Shown here in pieces: positions 21,576-38,589 of a stretch of 54,136 nucleotides of DNA. Source of the stretch: Planctomycetaceae bacterium (GTDB taxonomy: Bacteria; Planctomycetota; Planctomycetia; Pirellulales; UBA1268); assembly GCA_021300535.1 (NCBI GenBank), contig JAJTED010000001.1:1-54136 (forward strand), in the 5' to 3' direction. How positions within the stretch are numbered: the first letter of the stretch is position 1; each line of letters starts with the position of its first letter. Below the pieces are notes generated by a model that saw only the letters and a program-made list of their open reading frames with translations, searched no databases and was not told the DNA's origin. Both the position numbers and the translations under genes were made by a program.

Positions 21576-24208
21576 CAGATCAATACCGGTCGCGGCGGCA
21601 GCCGTCGATGGCCATGGGCTGGGAACGCGTCTGCGGCGGCATGGCGATCGTCATCTGCCTGGCCATGACGGCTGGGGCGCAGGCGCCACCCGAGCCGACG
21701 CGGCAGGCGGCGGTGCTCGATCTTTTGGACGACGGCTTCCTGACCGGGAAACTCGTGCCCGTGGCCGGGGAGCCGGGGCGGCCGCGGACGACGGTGCTGT
21801 GGCAGTCGCCACTGTTCGACGAACCGCTGGAGTTCGCAGTCGACGGGATCGAGCGGATCCGGTTCGCGACGGTCGGGGCCGGAGCGGCCGGGCCCGATGC
21901 CTGGCGGGCGGACCTGCGCGGTGGTGATTGCGTGGCAGGTGTGCTCGAAACCATCGACGCCGACCACATCGTCTTGGCCGGGAACGACTTCGGCGGGCCG
22001 CCGCTGCGGATCCGCCGCGGGGAGGTCGTGCGGCTGACCCGGAAGGATTCGGCCGTGAAGACGATCGTGCCGGGCGGTCTGGCCGGCTGGAACGCCGACG
22101 GCAAGATGTGGCAGGAGCAGGCCGGTCGGCTCGTGTGCGAGAAGCCGGGGAGTGTTGCCGATCGCGACGTGGGGGCGGCCGCGCGGTCCTGCTTCACGCT
22201 GGCCTTGTCGTGGGACGAGCGGCCCGATCTGGATCTGCTGTTCGCTTCCGAGCCACAGGAGATCGCCCGGCTCAAGGACGGCGGCGGCAAAAAGCCGGCC
22301 GTAGCGGACGAGTATCGCATCGAGGTGACGGCCGGCGACGTGCTCGTGGTGCGCGAGGGCGCGACGGCGAAGTTCGACCTGGCAGGGACATTGCCCGTCG
22401 GCCGCGGCGGCGTGAAACTCACGGTGTTTGTCGACCAGGAGCGCGGGCGGATGGCGGTGGTCATGCCGCAGGGGGAGGCCGGCGGAAAGCTCGTTTTTGA
22501 CGAGACGCTCGCACCGCGAAAGCCCGCCGTCCGATCGGGGTTTGGAATCCGGCTCCGCAGCGGCGACGTGCGGGTCGACGGGCTGCGGGTCAGCCCGTGG
22601 AAGGGCGACGCGCCACGCGAGTTCGGCGGCACGGACGGGCCGGGTGGTCCAGGGAAGATCGCAGCCTTCGACAAGGCGACGGGCATGTTCACCTTCGGTG
22701 GCCCGGAAGATCCGCGGCAGGTCGCCGCGACCGAGGTCGAAGACATCGAGTTTCCGACGGCCGATGCGGAACAGCCCGCTGCTCCGCCGGGCTCCGTGCT
22801 CGCCGGGTTCCATGGGGGCAGCCGCCTCACCGGCCGCATCCTGGAAGTGACCGGGAACTCACTGCGGCTGGAATGTCCTGCCTTGGTAGAGCCGCTGGAA
22901 TGTGGGTTCGAGCGGCTCGCCGTGCTCGATGCTGTCGGCAGTCGGCAGCCAGCCGCCCTGCCGGGTAGACCCGGGATACTCGACGCGACCCTGGGCCGCA
23001 TGCTGGGCTGCCTGGCCAACGCGGCCGGCGGCGCGGGGGGCATTGCCTGGCAGCCACGCGGCGCCGTCGGACCGGTGGCGATCCGGCCGACCGAGCCGTT
23101 ACGGGTGGGCTATCGCGGGCTTGCCGCGCTCGGCGGGGTCGGTATCGGCCTGAAACAAAAAGCCAATGCCTGGGTGGTGACTGAGCTGACCCCCGGCGGG
23201 CCGGCGGCCCGCGACGGACGGATCGCAGCGGGCTGGACGCTCGAGTCGCTCCGGCTGGATGCGACTGCGGAGCCGATCGCCGCGTCGGGGCTCAAGTCCG
23301 ACGACATTCGCGGCTTGCTCCGCGGCGTCACCGGCTCGGAGGTGTGGCTGCAGTTCGCCGACGTCGCGGGCGCGAAGCAACAGGTCGTGCTGGTGCGCGA
23401 TGCCGGTGGCCGGGGCGACCTCGCTGGAGCCGCCGAGCGGGATGTGTTGGAAAAGGTGCTGAAGCTCCACGAAGCCCGCCTGGCCCGGGCGGTTCAAGCC
23501 GCCAGCGGCCAGGCGACCGTCTACCTGAAGACCGGTGACTCGATCATCTGCACGGTGCTCTCCGCCGACGCGAAGGGGCTGCGGATCCGCACCGATCTGG
23601 TCCCCGACCTGTTCGTGCCTGCGATCGCACTGCGGGCCGTCGAGTTACTGCCGGGGGGCCCCGGCTCGATCTCCAAGGACAAGCTCGCCCGGCTCCTCAC
23701 CCTGCCGCGCATGCAGCAGGCCGACCCGCCAACGCACATGCTGCGGTTGCCCAATGGCGATTACCTGCGCGGCAAGCTCGTGTCGCTCGACGACCGGGAA
23801 CTGCGGATGAACGTGCTGGGAGTGGAGAAACAGTTTCCACGGGCGGACGTGGCGCGGCTGATCTGGCTCTCAGTCGAAGGCGATACGTCGGAGAGCGAGG
23901 CGCTGGCCGCCGTGACCGGTGGCGGAGAGGGGCGCGGCGGTGTTGCGGCCCGGGCGACGATGGCCGACGGGCGGCGGCTCACGCTCCTGGCGCAGCGGCT
24001 GGATGGCGGCCGGCTCGTCGGCGAAAGCGGCGTGCTGGGCACGATCGGCGTCGACTTGGCCGTCTGCGACAACCTGGTGCTGGGCCCGAAGCCGGCGGAA
24101 GCAGCGCCGGTCGAACTCCCCTACGGAAAATGGAAGCTCAAGCCGGCGCCCGTGCCGCGGGCGTTGGGCGGCGGTGGTTCCGGTGCCCGGCCCAAGCCCG
24201 CCGACTGA
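21572..24208 (+). CDS. Secreted PDZ-containing protein, last gene of the MoxR operon
   Basis: An 878-residue exported protein. A signal peptide lies at about residues 20-37. The N-terminal half is beta-rich and includes repeated segments of the form 'L.DGD.L.G.L..ID...I' (GGDCVAGVLETIDADHIVLAG; later GDSIICTVLSADAKGL and NGDYLRGKLVSLDDREL). A laminin-G/concanavalin-like region occupies about 165-345. A PDZ-like domain lies near 505-610 (GIGLKQKANAWVVTELTPGGPAARDG). It is the last gene before a 1.3-kb non-coding block. The modules suggest an envelope sensor or binding protein; no catalytic residues are seen. Confidence 0.7.
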   Translation: MTDQYRSRRQPSMAMGWERVCGGMAIVICLAMTAGAQAPPEPTRQAAVLDLLDDGFLTGKLVPVAGEPGRPRTTVLWQSPLFDEPLEFAVDGIERIRFATVGAGAAGPDAWRADLRGGDCVAGVLETIDADHIVLAGNDFGGPPLRIRRGEVVRLTRKDSAVKTIVPGGLAGWNADGKMWQEQAGRLVCEKPGSVADRDVGAAARSCFTLALSWDERPDLDLLFASEPQEIARLKDGGGKKPAVADEYRIEVTAGDVLVVREGATAKFDLAGTLPVGRGGVKLTVFVDQERGRMAVVMPQGEAGGKLVFDETLAPRKPAVRSGFGIRLRSGDVRVDGLRVSPWKGDAPREFGGTDGPGGPGKIAAFDKATGMFTFGGPEDPRQVAATEVEDIEFPTADAEQPAAPPGSVLAGFHGGSRLTGRILEVTGNSLRLECPALVEPLECGFERLAVLDAVGSRQPAALPGRPGILDATLGRMLGCLANAAGGAGGIAWQPRGAVGPVAIRPTEPLRVGYRGLAALGGVGIGLKQKANAWVVTELTPGGPAARDGRIAAGWTLESLRLDATAEPIAASGLKSDDIRGLLRGVTGSEVWLQFADVAGAKQQVVLVRDAGGRGDLAGAAERDVLEKVLKLHEARLARAVQAASGQATVYLKTGDSIICTVLSADAKGLRIRTDLVPDLFVPAIALRAVELLPGGPGSISKDKLARLLTLPRMQQADPPTHMLRLPNGDYLRGKLVSLDDRELRMNVLGVEKQFPRADVARLIWLSVEGDTSESEALAAVTGGGEGRGGVAARATMADGRRLTLLAQRLDGGRLVGESGVLGTIGVDLAVCDNLVLGPKPAEAAPVELPYGKWKLKPAPVPRALGGGGSGARPKPAD

Positions 24209-24210
24209 GC

Positions 24211-24290
24211 TGCTCCCACTCGTCCCTGCCGCACGACTTCACGGCATTCCCGGTTCGGACCCGCGCTGCATGGCAACCGGGAAAACCGCC
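24211..24290 (-). repeat. Inverted, diverged copy of the 178-bp repeat (family 1)
   Basis: Read on the minus strand this stretch aligns with the inner part of family 1: TTCCCGGTTGCCATGC, then GGGTCCGAACCGGG, then GTCGTGCGGCA. It lacks the two terminator-like hairpins that flank this core in the three tandem copies. It begins immediately after the PDZ gene stop. Confidence 0.55.
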
Positions 24291-24294
24291 GCCT

Positions 24295-24394
24295 GGAGCG
24301 GCAGTGGCTGTGTGTCGGCAAAACATCGCATCGTGCGATTTTTGCCTGGCGGGCCTCCGCCCGCTGGTGTCAACCCGGCCATCCTGGCCTGACC
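24295..24394 (+). repeat. Hairpin repeat family 2, copy 1
   Basis: A 100-base unit with three hairpins: ATCGCA-TCG-TGCGAT followed by a T-run, GCGGGC-CTCC-GCCCGC, and GGCCA-TCC-TGGCC. It is repeated almost exactly 123 bases downstream. The first hairpin plus TTTTT looks like an intrinsic terminator for the upstream operon. Confidence 0.8.
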
Positions 24395-24417
24395 TCGGGA
24401 GCAGTATGCGTCCTTTT

Positions 24418-24517
24418 GGAGCGGCAGTGGCTGTGTGTCGTCAAAACATCGCATCGTGCGATTTTTGCCTGGCGGGCCTCCGCCCGCTGGTGTCAACCCG
24501 GCCATCCTGGCCTGACC
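24418..24517 (+). repeat. Hairpin repeat family 2, copy 2
   Basis: A direct copy of the unit at 24295-24394, with one obvious substitution (GTCGTC for GTCGGC). It has the same three hairpins and T-run. The two copies are separated by 23 unrelated bases. Confidence 0.85.
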
Positions 24518-24520
24518 ACC

Positions 24521-24600
24521 GCAGTGATCTCTGTCCGTCGTGCCCAGTTGCCGGGAAGCCTGAAGCGTGAGCTGAGCGAATACGCGGCGGTTCGCCTGCG
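24521..24600 (+). repeat. Dispersed repeat family 3, copy 1
   Basis: The core at 24546-24586 (starting AGTTGCCGGGAAGCCTGAAG) matches 30575-30615 at 35 of 41 positions. Similarity extends weakly some 25 bases upstream on both copies. No coding function is apparent. Confidence 0.6.
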
Positions 24601-24680
24601 GCCATCCTCATTCCCTTGGCTTGCGCCTTCTGCTGTTGCGCGTTCTCCAGTCATGCGCTCGGCTTGACACGCGCGAACGG

Positions 24681-25200
24681 CACAAAAAGCCCCCGGCGGG
24701 AGCCGGGGGACTCCGGGTGGCATGCCTTCCCGTGTGCCATGCGATGTGGGTTTGAACCGGGCAATTGCGTGCGGTCATCCGGCATGGACTGCGGGGTGGT
24801 GTTCATACCCGGTGTCCCCGGGTTTCCACCCGGGGCTTCTTGGAACGCGTGTCGCTTCCACAAAAAGCCCCCGGCAGGAGCCGGGGGACTCCGGGTCGCA
24901 TGCCTTCCCGGGTGCCATGCGATGTGGGTTTGAACCGGGCAATTGCGTGCGGTCATCCGGCATGGACTGCGGGGTGGTGTTCATACCCGGTGTCCCCGGG
25001 TTTCCACCCGGGGCGTTCTTGGAACGCGTGTCGCTTCCACAAAAAGCCCCCGGCAGGAGCCGGGGGACTCCGGGTGGCATGCCTTCCCGTGTGCCATGCG
25101 ATGTGGGTTTGAACCGGGCAATTGCGTGCGGTCATCCGGCATGGACGGCGGGGTGGTGTTCATACCCGGTGTCCCCGGGTTTCCACCCGGGGCTTTTTGT
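24681..25200 (+). repeat. Three tandem copies of a 178-179 bp repeat (family 1)
   Basis: Copies begin at 24681, 24859 and 25038, each with CACAAAAAG. Each holds a GC hairpin (CCCCCGGC, loop GGGA or AGGA, GCCGGGGG) read as a terminator on the minus strand. A core follows with GCCATGCG and CGGCATGG at its ends, and then a second hairpin (CCCCGGGT-TTCC-ACCCGGGG; in copy 1 at 24816-24835) followed by CTTCTT or CTTTTTG on the plus strand. The copies are nearly identical to one another. They are not CRISPR: there are no variable spacers. Confidence 0.9.
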
Positions 25201-25448
25201 GTGGGCGCCAGGCCCGGAGGGCCGGGTTGATTCCAAGCGGGCGGCGGCCCGCCAAGCGAACCGCGGCACGATGCCGCGTATTCGCGTGGATCATGCTCCC
25301 GGGTTTCCACCCGGGGCTTCTTGTGTGGGTGCCAGGCCCGGAGGGCCGGGTTGATTCCAAGCGGGCGGCGGCCCGCCAAGCGAACCGCGGCACGATGCCG
25401 CGTGTTCGCGTGGATCATGCTCCCGGGTTTCCACCTGGGGCTTCTTGG
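25201..25448 (-). repeat. Two tandem 124-bp copies of family 2, inverted
   Basis: Units begin at 25201 and 25325. Read on the minus strand they align with the units at 24295 and 24418: CGCGGCATCGTGCCGCG opposite the ATCGCA-TCG-TGCGAT stem, GCGGGC-CGCC-GCCCGC, AATCAACCCGGCC opposite GTCAACCCGGCC, and GGCCC-TCC-GGGCC opposite GGCCA-TCC-TGGCC. The stems differ by paired changes that keep them base-paired. Each plus-strand unit ends with the CCCGGGTTTCCACCCGGGG hairpin also used in family 1; the second has one mismatch. Confidence 0.8.
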
Positions 25449-25732
25449 GCCGGTGACGGGACCGATCGCCTGTGTACGGATGGTCAAAACATGATTCGCT
25501 GCTGGATCCCTGCAGCGGCGCCGCTCTATTGAGCTCCTCCGCGCAACACCAAAACTCGCGCCTCGGGCGTGCGTCGTGCACGGTGTGTTTTATCCCGTGG
25601 GTGCAAGACCCACACCCGGAGATGGTTGTTCGCCGGGAAGCAGTCGAAGTCGATACGGAGGTGACGAACTGTCGAGCGCCTTCGCTGTCAACGGGCCGGC
25701 GGTATGTTGCGCCGGCACCAGCCAGGTCGAAG

Positions 25733-26053
25733 GTTCGTGCGGTCTGTGAAAAGATCAGCGAGCCGACGAGTTCCCGGACGACGTGGCGTGATCCGTCGCA
25801 GGTGGTGGTGCGCATCAACCGGGTCTTGACCGAGTGGGCGAACTACAACCGGATGGGGTACGTCACGGGAGCCTGGAAGGTCGTGCAGGGGCACACCTGC
25901 CGCAGGCTCCGCCGGTGGATGTGTCGGAAGCACCGTGGGGACCGGAGGTACCAGAACCTTCCGGACCTGAGTCTGTACGAAAACTACGGCCTTGTGAAAC
26001 GCACGGAACGCATTCAACGCAAACAGCTGCGGGCGCAGGCACGGTCAATCTGA
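25733..26053 (+). pseudogene. C-terminal fragment of group II intron reverse transcriptase/maturase
   Basis: About 106 codons matching the thumb/X (maturase) region and tail of group II intron proteins: VCEKISEPTSSRTTWRD, the hallmark RINRVLTEWANYN, RRLRRWMCRKHRG, and LYENYGLVKR at the end. The reverse transcriptase domain with the YADD box is absent, because the sequence upstream in frame is intron RNA-like. The open frame continues upstream to 25472 but that part has no protein similarity I recognise. It is a broken gene, left by internal deletion. Confidence 0.75.
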
Positions 26054-26057
26054 TCGG

Positions 26058-26092
26058 AGAGCCGGATGCGGGAGATCTGCACGTCCGGTTCG
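26058..26092 (+). ncRNA. Group II intron domain V hairpin
   Basis: A 35-base hairpin with the domain V layout. The lower stem GAGCCGGA pairs with TCCGGTTC and includes the AGC triad at its base, a two-base CG bulge lies on the 3' side, and the upper stem carries a GAGA-containing loop. It lies 5 bases after the stop of the maturase fragment, as expected for group II introns. Its sequence still looks intact. Confidence 0.75.
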
Positions 26093-26250
26093 ATGAGCGG
26101 GGAGTGGAAACGGAGCATGGCGGGGCTCGTGAGGCACCGGCAACCGAAAGGGCCGGAAACAGATCGGCCCCGCCTAAACCACCGTGCCACTCCCCGACTC
26201 TCCTTCCAGGGCAGATTGCCCGGGGGACGCTCGTCCTCTGCCACAGCCTG

Positions 26251-28413
26251 CTAGCCGGCCGTCGGCGTGGGTGCGGGCAGCAGTTCCGGAGCCCCCGATG
26301 GCACGGGCCGGCGCGGGGCCGATGCCGGCTCCTCTTCGCGCGTGGCCGGGTCGCGGGCCGGCAACTGCGCGGCCCGGGCGTCGGCGCCGATCGACTCGAA
26401 GTTCTGCGTGATGGGGCCGCGGCTGAAAACACCGGGCCGCGAGTGGCCGTAGTCGAGATACAGGCTGGCGTCCCGCTGCCGGGCACGGCGGTGAGCGTCG
26501 AAGTAGGCCTTACCCGGCCAGGGGCCTTCGGCCAGGAACACGCCGTTGTATTCCAGCAGCGATCCCTTGCGGAAATGCAGCTGCGAGATCGAGCGGTTGT
26601 AGTCGACGAGCGCGCGGTAGTAGGCGCTCTCCGCCTCGGCCCGGCGCCGCTGGGCGTCGAGCAGCTGGTCGAGCGTCACCTGGCCGGCATCGTAGGCTGC
26701 CTGGACCGCGTCGACCTGCCGCTCGGCGGCCACGCGGCGGTTGAAGTTGGTCTGGGCGAGGGCGAAGTTCGTGTCGACGTTGCGGACCGCATCGACCAGC
26801 GCGTGCGAGGCCTCGAGTTCCTCGTCCTGGAGTCGGGCCCGCTCCCGGGCGAGCTGGAGCTGGTGGTGGCGGACCGTGGCCAGCTCGCGGCGGAAGCCGA
26901 GTGGCATGAGGAACTGGGCACCCGCCTGCCACTCCTGGAACTGGCCGCTGAACAGCGTCGAGTAGGCATCGGTGCCGACGAGTGGGTCGTCGCCGTCGGC
27001 GCCGTAGGGCTGATAGTTTTGGTTGATCAGATCCTGGCCCATGCCGAGGAACCGCCAGCGGCCTACGAGGTCGAGCCGGGGTAGGATCAGGTTCTTGGCG
27101 GCCGTGAGCTCGAGCTCCCGCTGCTTGATCACCCACTTCTGCTTGCGGAGCTCGGCCGACCGGGAGAGGGCTTCCACGAGCGACTGCTGCCAGTCGAACG
27201 CGATGCGGGCGGTCGTCGGCTCGTCGGCCGGGCGAATGAGCCGACCGTCGCTGGCGGAGATGCCCATCATGTAGCGGAGCCGGCTTTCGCTCCGGTAGAC
27301 GTCGGTGAGCGCCTGTTCGACCTCGCTGCGGAAGAAGAAATATTGCTCCCGGGCCTGGGCCTCCTTGTCACGCTCGCCGCCCCGCGAGCCCTCGACCATC
27401 AGGGCGTGGACCTTCCGCCAGGCCTCGAGCGAACTGTCGCGGCCCGCCTTGCGGGCCTCCAGGTTCCGGTAGGCGAAGTACAGCTCCCAGTATGACTGTT
27501 CCGTGTCGCTGACCAGGTTGCGGACGCCGGCCTCGAAGTCGGCCAGCGAGATGTCGGCGTTGATCCGGGCCAGCAGCACGCCGCGGAACAGCGGTCGGCC
27601 GTAGATGTTCTCGAACGAGTCGGGGCCGGCGATGCGGTTGTAGGTGACGCCGGCGCCCTGGAGCAGCGGCTGGTTGAACGTGAAGTCGTAGTTCGTGGTG
27701 AACGTGGAGGGGACGAGCACCTTGAAGTTCGGGTCGCCGATGGGCAGCCCGTTGTTCTGGCGGGTGGGGTTGTTGTTGTTGTCGTAGATCGTGGAATTCG
27801 CGAATCCCCAGGTGGCACCGGTGGCGGTCCGCTTCGTGATGCCGGTGGTCAAATTGCCCTGGTCACCGAGGAACTGCTGCTGGAACAGCGCCGTGAATTG
27901 GCCGCCGACGTTCTGCGGCCGGTTCTGCCGCTCCCACGTGAGCGAGCTGGAAAGCTGGGCGTCGAACAGGGCCAGGGCGCTCTCGACGCCGCGGAACGGG
28001 TCGGTTTCGGTGATCGCCGGGTCGTAGGCCGTCGGCGTCTGCTGCGGCGCGGTGAGCAGCGAGACGGGCGGTTCGCCGGTCTGCGGCCGCGGGCCGCCGA
28101 AACTGCCGAACCGGCCGCCGAGGTTCCGCAGCACCTTGCCGTTCTCCAGGGCGGTGCGGATCGCCTCTTCGAGCGAGACCTCCCAGATCGAGTCGAACTT
28201 CGCGTTCGAGAGCGTGACGGGCTCGATGGCCCCGGCCGCCTCGGCGAGCGGTTCCTGGCAGGTGTCCGGGTACTCGATCTTCTGGATCGCCCCCACGTAG
28301 TGCGAAAGGTCGCCATCCTCGAAGAAGTAAAACGGCTGCCGCGGTGCGCAGCCCCCGGACAGGAGCGAAACGCTCGTCAGCATGACCCAGGCAGTGCGGG
28401 CGAGTCGGGACAC
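26251..28413 (-). CDS. TolC-type outer-membrane efflux lipoprotein
   Basis: A 720-residue protein. GTG 28413 gives a lipoprotein signal (SRLARTAWVMLTSVSLLSGGC, lipidation Cys near residue 22). The body has the two long helical-hairpin repeats of outer-membrane efflux proteins, with periodic residues such as LALFDAQLSSSLTWERQN, SYWELYFAYRNLEARK and AAYDAGQVTLDQLLDAQRR near the second repeat. TolC-like proteins form trimeric outer-membrane channels for efflux pumps or secretion. No inner-membrane pump or adaptor gene is next to it. The C-terminal 80 residues are Pro/Ala/Arg-rich and not part of the barrel. An upstream start at 28569 would give a poor N-terminus and was not used. Confidence 0.85.
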   Translation of the reverse strand: MSRLARTAWVMLTSVSLLSGGCAPRQPFYFFEDGDLSHYVGAIQKIEYPDTCQEPLAEAAGAIEPVTLSNAKFDSIWEVSLEEAIRTALENGKVLRNLGGRFGSFGGPRPQTGEPPVSLLTAPQQTPTAYDPAITETDPFRGVESALALFDAQLSSSLTWERQNRPQNVGGQFTALFQQQFLGDQGNLTTGITKRTATGATWGFANSTIYDNNNNPTRQNNGLPIGDPNFKVLVPSTFTTNYDFTFNQPLLQGAGVTYNRIAGPDSFENIYGRPLFRGVLLARINADISLADFEAGVRNLVSDTEQSYWELYFAYRNLEARKAGRDSSLEAWRKVHALMVEGSRGGERDKEAQAREQYFFFRSEVEQALTDVYRSESRLRYMMGISASDGRLIRPADEPTTARIAFDWQQSLVEALSRSAELRKQKWVIKQRELELTAAKNLILPRLDLVGRWRFLGMGQDLINQNYQPYGADGDDPLVGTDAYSTLFSGQFQEWQAGAQFLMPLGFRRELATVRHHQLQLARERARLQDEELEASHALVDAVRNVDTNFALAQTNFNRRVAAERQVDAVQAAYDAGQVTLDQLLDAQRRRAEAESAYYRALVDYNRSISQLHFRKGSLLEYNGVFLAEGPWPGKAYFDAHRRARQRDASLYLDYGHSRPGVFSRGPITQNFESIGADARAAQLPARDPATREEEPASAPRRPVPSGAPELLPAPTPTAG

Positions 28414-30186: not shown

Positions 30187-30544
30187 TTGGCCCGGCGTGG
30201 TCGCAGCAAGGTGCGACCAGCCGGGCGTGCGGCCGCCCTCCCGGCGGCCGTGGCCGCAGCGGGGCTGCGGCGGCGCGGCGGCTCGACGAGGCGTCGATCC
30301 GCGGCGCGGCTGGGCGGCATGCACGCGGCGCCGCCTGCGGCGGCTGCGTGCGGTTGGGCGCAATGGCATGGTCGTGCGTTCGTAGCGGCGTCGTTTGGCT
30401 GCTCGCCTGGACGGCGAGCTTTCGGGTGCCGGCGGGTGCCGGCCAAGCGAGGCGAGGCAGGAGGCGGAGGCTTTGCGTGTAGCATCCACGTGGCGCGGCC
30501 TTCGGCCGCTGCGTGCGGTTTGGTGCGCGGGCGTGGTTGTCCTT

Positions 30545-38333: not shown

Positions 38334-38353
38334 GGCGCCCCGATCCAATCCGG

Positions 38354-38464
38354 TGTGCCATGCGCTGCCGGTTCGACGCGGGGAAGCGCGTGCCGTCGTG
38401 CGGCATGGAAGGCGGGTTGGTTTTCGTGCCCGGAGTCCCCGGGTTTCCACCCGGGGCTTCTTGG
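38354..38464 (+). repeat. Solitary diverged copy of hairpin repeat family 1
   Basis: Aligned with the 178-bp units at 24.7-25.2 kb: GTGCCATGCG...CGGCATGG core, then CCCGGAGTCC and the same hairpin CCCCGGGT-TTCC-ACCCGGGG (38437-38456) followed by CTTCTTGGA. It lacks the first hairpin. It lies 20 bases after the kinase stop and ends about 125 bases before the PQQ propeller gene. Confidence 0.8.
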
Positions 38465-38589
38465 AGCTGTGGATTTCCTGTTCAGCGGGCCGGCAACGCA
38501 CGGTGCGCGGGCGGCCTGCCGTGTACCATGCTCGAGGCCGCCGGGCTGGCCGCGGGTGCCGTGGCATTTCGCGGCGCGCACCAGTCGTG

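Follow-up and report, generated by a model that had tools for sequence, protein, structure and literature searches.

A probable MITE-like transposon copy filled with tandem hairpin units in a convergent intergenic region of a Planctomycetaceae genome

The window analysed in this study is a 54,136-nt stretch of contig JAJTED010000001.1 from a Planctomycetaceae bacterium (GCA_021300535.1), the 4.0 Mb genome of which is assembled in 197 contigs and is 86% complete. A repeat block at 24209-25460 lies between a plus-strand operon, with its stop codon at 24208, and a minus-strand gene at 26251-28383; a group II intron relic is found in the same interval. Gene borders are approximate, as gene calling relied on a hexamer gene finder; no gene was called within 24209-25460, consistent with the initial annotation, which had described the block as gene-free. 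The order that it had given for two repeat families was likewise recovered: a partial F1 copy (24222-24283) and two F2 units on the minus strand, followed by three F1 and two F2 units on the plus strand, with a spacing of 178/179 bp between the plus-strand F1 copies and 124 bp between the plus-strand F2 copies. Both stem changes that it had singled out (GGCCA/TGGCC to GGCCC/GGGCC, and ATCGCA/TGCGAT to CGCGGCA/TGCCGCG) are present. The block is not one coherent structure: most of it is a single small transposon copy that lacks a transposase gene and is filled with head-to-tail hairpin units.

The left part of the block (24222-24513), comprising an F1 fragment and two F2-type units, is a separate remnant outside the transposon, with a different type of hairpin 3 (GGCAAAAATCGCACGATGCGATGTTTTGCC). 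The F1 fragment (24222-24283, minus strand; blastn, 76% identity to F1 positions 45-107) lies 13 nt past the stop codon of the plus-strand operon. The two minus-strand units are copies of the three-hairpin element that forms the core of F2: copy 1 (24314-24390) is of an older type with a GGCAAAA..TTTTGCC hairpin (covariance model R1, 80.5 bits, E 4e-13), and copy 2 (24437-24513) scored 76 bits with the same model. Among the terminator-like sites counted on the plus strand, a hairpin ATCGCATCGTGCGAT followed by TTTTG at 24325-24339, repeated at 24448-24462, would serve the operon.

The main element (24628-25554, plus strand, 927 bp) exceeds the limits originally set for the block: the repeats do fall within 24209-25460, but the element itself reaches 25554. 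Its terminal inverted repeats (TIRs) are 15 bp long (TTCTGCTGTTGCGCG, 24628-24642, plus strand; CGCGCAACACCAAAA, 25540-25554, minus strand), with two mismatches in the left one. They are flanked by an 8-bp target site duplication (TSD) with one mismatch (7/8), namely CTTGCGCC at 24620-24627 and CTCGCGCC at 25555-25562, the latter inside what is left of a second palindromic repeat, which served as the target. F1 unit 1 lies at 24683-24859 (a 157-nt near-palindrome plus a 21-nt spacer), unit 2 at 24861-25038 and unit 3 at 25040-25196, the last ending on the plus strand in a terminator-like hairpin (25173-25192) followed by CTTTTTG. F2 unit 1 (25201-25324) consists of a three-hairpin core (25210-25288; model R1, 89.4 bits) and a CCCGGG hairpin, while F2 unit 2 (25325-25447) has its core at 25334-25412 (92.1 bits); all five units lie on the plus strand. 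The conserved right-end segment that follows (25448-25539, plus strand) is 74-96% identical to other genomic copies, and both the complete 107-nt right end (25448-25554) and the left stretch recur elsewhere in the genome with sharp boundaries.

The outer ends of the element are inverted copies of TTTTGRTGTTGCGCG, which had 98 genomic matches with up to two mismatches against 2 for the reversed pattern; at least 40 loci resembling the block occur in the host genome, many of them at contig ends, and the block is therefore far beyond chance. Pairing of ends yielded 24 copies, with a TSD matching at 7/8 positions or better in 16 and perfectly in 7, and none in some copies (L062, L304, L328). The commonest form is 322-325 bp long and contains one F1. 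Copies with intact units measure 322 bp plus 178 bp for each additional F1 and 124 bp for each F2, within 6 bp: the lengths found were 446 (predicted 446), 571/572 (570), 927 in the window (926), 994 (996) and 1614 bp (1616), and a 619-bp copy likewise fits. Two copies depart from this rule, one with two F1 matches (446 bp found, 500 predicted) and one lacking a TSD (725 found, 446 predicted). Up to 11 internal units were counted, and because copy lengths are modular, F1 and F2 appear to be internal modules multiplied in tandem inside the element. With TIRs in common with an autonomous element, TSDs constantly of 8 bp and no transposase gene inside, 24628-25554 is very likely a transposon, MITE-like and BOX-like in character. 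The initial annotation had reported the repeats without the terminal inverted repeats, the target duplications or the related insertion sequence described below.

Wider sampling of copies altered the picture of the two families. They had been said always to lie in opposite orientation, whereas in many copies F1 and F2 point the same way (e.g. F1+F2+F1+F2+x8). The opposition seen here reflects local history and no rule, as the block contains two separate insertions, and the direction of F1 is partly arbitrary since F1 is about 62% self-complementary. Nor is every unit a chain of perfect stems, F1 folding mainly as a single long imperfect hairpin with two terminal hairpins. Part of the F1 arrays have no detectable TIRs, and F1 therefore seems also to spread or persist outside the MITE. 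F1-like near-palindromes were additionally seen at four loci in other genera of the family (L111, L149, L190, L199). In another genus, 172-173-bp versions without F1 were found (G085), and in genome G018 the orthologous convergent gene pair is separated by a short intergenic region with neither element nor intron.

Most MITE targets are variants of CTCGCGCC inside another palindromic repeat. A dispersed palindrome (AAGCCCGAGGCGTGAGCCGAG..), present at L178, L148, L229 and L288, is the insertion target of the MITE. In the window, the group II intron relic (25569-26204) was recognised by a maturase-domain fragment (GIIM) and a domain V/VI match, with a probable 5' end GTGCG at 25569; the palindromic repeat that formerly served as the MITE target carries the relic in its right half.

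A candidate mover was found in a congener (G017), where an intact 1509-bp insertion sequence has 17-bp TIRs identical at 17/17 positions to the MITE ends. Its 478-aa product contains a DDE transposase domain (DDE_Tnp_1, E 3.6e-14) and comes closest to the NCBIfam models IS701 and IS4, without reaching the cut-off of either. Fragments 76-87% identical to this insertion sequence also occur at contig ends in G008. The MITE was probably mobilised in trans by such a same-ended insertion sequence; it speaks against this that no transposase of the G017 type was found in the window's own genome (best E 3e-4), which is only 86% complete. Two candidate autonomous copies were rejected: a 1.7-kb TIR pair (contig C57, L329) enclosed a group II intron reverse-transcriptase relic and no transposase, and a 2.07-kb span turned out to contain a distinct element of 323 bp next to a uvrC gene, again with no transposase.

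The core of F2 is a palindromic 78-nt chain of three hairpins with a much wider distribution. A covariance model search retrieved 154 copies in 100 loci, and the unit was present in 29 of 79 related genomes, all belonging to the window's own family (7 genera of freshwater planctomycetes), with none in other families of the order among the 79 genomes searched and no match in plasmid and viral collections. Covariation over genome-wide copies had been set beforehand as the test of the claim that the stems are kept by paired changes, and F2 passed shuffling and sliding controls. Among 141 distinct copies, 97.0% of cells were paired and 20 of 24 pairs showed two-sided changes, in a statistic that leaves shared ancestry out; double-changed cells numbered 554 against 148 in shuffles, and slid controls paired at 22-51%. 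This set was fetched by an exact hairpin-1 pattern, which makes hairpin 1 uninformative there; in 55 distinct copies, mostly not chosen by pattern, hairpin 1 covaried too and 94.0% of cells were paired. Across sets, pairing was 94-97%, with 239-554 double changes against 66-148 in shuffles, and 0 of 500 shuffles equalled the observed score. The stems are not merely exact recent duplicates, as F2-type units displayed 46 stem combinations. For F1, in contrast, almost no covariation was detected in 74 copies (2-3 double-changed cells per terminal hairpin and none in the other main helices), and F1 as a covarying RNA was rejected for lack of useful covariation.

The paired changes are thus real for F2, but much of the change consists of one whole hairpin variant replacing another. 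Where orthologous sites of different species were compared, the place of the hairpin was kept and the stem replaced (L117 and L074, both 3 nt from the stop codon), the inner stem alone was replaced (L081 and L078), or the whole element seemed to have been replaced (L105 and L144). Stems are variable, linkers are conserved and the loops GGA/GGAG/GA are almost invariant; in hairpin 3, an unpaired base at model position 68 was found in 115 of 118 copies.

Three-hairpin elements avoid promoters and settle downstream of genes: 50 lay between convergent and 2 between divergent neighbours, against 106:102 for all neighbours. The distance to a stop codon is exactly 3 nt in twenty copies, all of which turn hairpin 3 towards the gene, while any other distance is represented by 4 copies at most. 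The junction reads C-TAG or C-TGA, 3 nt and CACG, with C preceding the stop in 17 of the 20 copies (background 32%, p 2e-6). REPs of the GTAG type have been described as a frequent source of the TAG stop of their flanking gene (PMC3733652), and in E. coli REPs within 15 nt of a stop codon can stall ribosomes (PMC12306157). The block in the window contains 10 terminator-like sites against 1.5 expected, counted as consensus matches only, on both strands and facing both genes; on these sequence grounds, a by-effect as a bidirectional transcription terminator has about an even chance of being real.

Paired changes can be held by selection on DNA or RNA, or can arise from mutation itself. An A-C mismatch on one strand is a G-U pair on the other. 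In a large set (A3), G-U pairs made up 17 of 2710 paired cells (0.6%) and A-C mismatches numbered 18, whereas tRNAs from the same loci had 7.5% G-U, a comparison in which the tRNA program may hide A-C mismatches; a second, less ascertained set (A7) gave 25 G-U against 14 A-C. A structure selected in RNA only should give an excess of G-U on one strand, which disfavours that form of selection, and because G-U pairs are rare and roughly strand-symmetric, a constraint that acts on DNA or independently of strand appears to fit somewhat better. The original proposal of selection acting on structure, in RNA or in DNA, was therefore too strong a statement.

Perfect Watson-Crick stems, hardly any one-sided intermediates and strand symmetry would also be expected if the paired changes were a mutational by-product, with quasipalindromes corrected by template switching and no selection. 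We regard this as unlikely: such correction should erase the unpaired base at position 68, which has persisted through full stem turnover, and loops and linkers are conserved as well.

Still less likely is a structured RNA, whether a regulatory RNA or a 3' UTR element, with its stems held by selection on the transcript. Strong F2 covariation and sharp placement at gene 3' ends would suit it, and a special case, a decoy RNA for CsrA/RsmA, was the first strong lead. All hairpin loops are GGA on one strand, near-invariant over varying stems, so that tandem GGA-loop hairpins of the CsrB type are present on that strand; CAGGATG resembles CsrA sites; and CsrA was detected in 22 of 22 genomes searched, with four copies in that of the window. 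The lead was weakened by the near-equal G-U and A-C counts, far from the tRNA value, and by orientation: in tandem gene contexts the element is antisense to transcription in 22 cases against 8, a bias that did not hold in a small sample from the window's own genome, so that the mRNA of the gene carries UCC loops and not GGA. Further against an RNA, the block has no promoter-like site and no Rfam family scored above its gathering threshold, the sole match being the group II intron next door. CsrA copy number reaches nine in other families of the order.

Least probable is that these are REP/BIME elements spread by a RAYT (an HUH Y1 transposase), the situation in enterobacteria and pseudomonads: HUH transposases are not known to make TIRs or 8-bp TSDs, both of which the main element has, the block has no GTAG tag (neither GTAG nor CTAC occurs in 24209-25480), and G022, with four Y1 genes, lacks the element. 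Although the elements are palindromic, intergenic, clustered and 3' of genes, some at stop codons, as REPs are (PMC3733652), and at two Y1 loci (L224, L229) an element lies no more than about 0.5 kb away, RAYT as a general cause is rejected, as no Y1 gene was found in two element-rich genomes, both about 95% complete, G047 (at least 60 copies) and G061 (31 copies), and no associated RAYT in these or in G019 despite many element copies. A tentative and rather doubtful suggestion is that the three-hairpin element represents a RAYT-independent class of mobile palindromes, recognised as single-stranded DNA by some factor through the GGA loops and the bulge, and targeting C-TGA/C-TAG at gene ends, where it would replace or supply stops and terminators across the family.

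In their resemblance to REP/BIME elements of the GTAG and CGTC superfamilies, the three-hairpin elements are dispersed, clustered palindromes 3' of genes that sometimes supply or abut the stop codon (PMC3733652; PMC12306157). They differ in being 78-nt three-hairpin units with no GTAG tag and no consistent RAYT, and a minority have CGTC by hairpin 1. The CGTC superfamily combines CGTC by the stem, A-T first pairs and a CCA tail; here 17 copies had CGTC and 46 CGCC, and the stem of hairpin 1 begins with G-C. The transposon as a whole is organised like BOX of Streptococcus pneumoniae (boxA-boxB(n)-boxC), in which end modules with TIRs resembling those of insertion sequences surround a variable number of tandem hairpin modules, in high copy and in intergenic regions (PMC3049150). 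The likeness is one of organisation and not of membership, as phylum and base composition differ; the planctomycete element is GC-rich, contains two different internal modules, of 178 and 124 bp, shares 17 bp of identical TIR with a DDE insertion sequence and is flanked by clear 8-bp TSDs. With MITEs and other non-autonomous insertion sequence derivatives, such as Nezha and RUP, it has in common TIRs matching a transposase-coding element, TSDs, no ORF and strong secondary structure, but its interior consists of dispersed, tandem-expanding hairpin repeats and is not derived from an insertion sequence.

The ends, duplications, modular lengths, related insertion sequence, family-wide covariation and location are direct observations, and the history that we build on them, of a site with multiple insertions, a MITE moved in trans with tandem-expanded hairpin units, and a REP-like three-hairpin element, is very likely as a whole. 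The convergent intergenic site would have taken at least two insertions, the main one being the MITE at 24628-25554, with its 15-bp inverted repeats, 8-bp duplications and TTTTGATGTTGCGCG ends, probably moved in trans by a same-ended insertion sequence with an IS701/IS4-like DDE transposase. The MITE would have acquired the 178-bp near-palindrome F1 and the 124-bp F2, built on the family-wide three-hairpin element, and both would have multiplied there in tandem, in the way of boxB modules in BOX, presumably by recombination or slippage. The three-hairpin element would itself be a dispersed palindrome of REP-like kind, in which the DNA stems stay complementary as their sequence turns over and which settles 3' of genes, in many cases directly at the stop codon, with bidirectional termination as a possible by-effect. 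Its likely role is that of mobile DNA tolerated downstream of genes.

A bacterial MITE can accordingly harbour dispersed hairpins in arrays able to expand, which makes it a planctomycete counterpart of pneumococcal BOX. The hairpin unit lends itself, as a clean natural example, to telling apart causes of covariation that act on RNA, on DNA or through mutation, and strong covariation with almost no G-U pairing illustrates that covariation alone is no proof of a functional RNA. Insertions adjacent to stop codons may provide a route by which mobile palindromes remodel gene ends.

Other repeats of these kinds were noted. In 304 sampled gene ends of G055 (L259-L278), a GTAG-type REP (TAG|GACAGGCTTCAGCCTGTC) was observed, the tag of which in several cases doubles as the TAG stop of the gene upstream, and this REP recurs in many loci of the family. 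Elsewhere in the window, a truncated F1 copy lies at 38343-38465, 15 nt past a stop codon, and a degenerate three-hairpin unit is present at 30403-30479.
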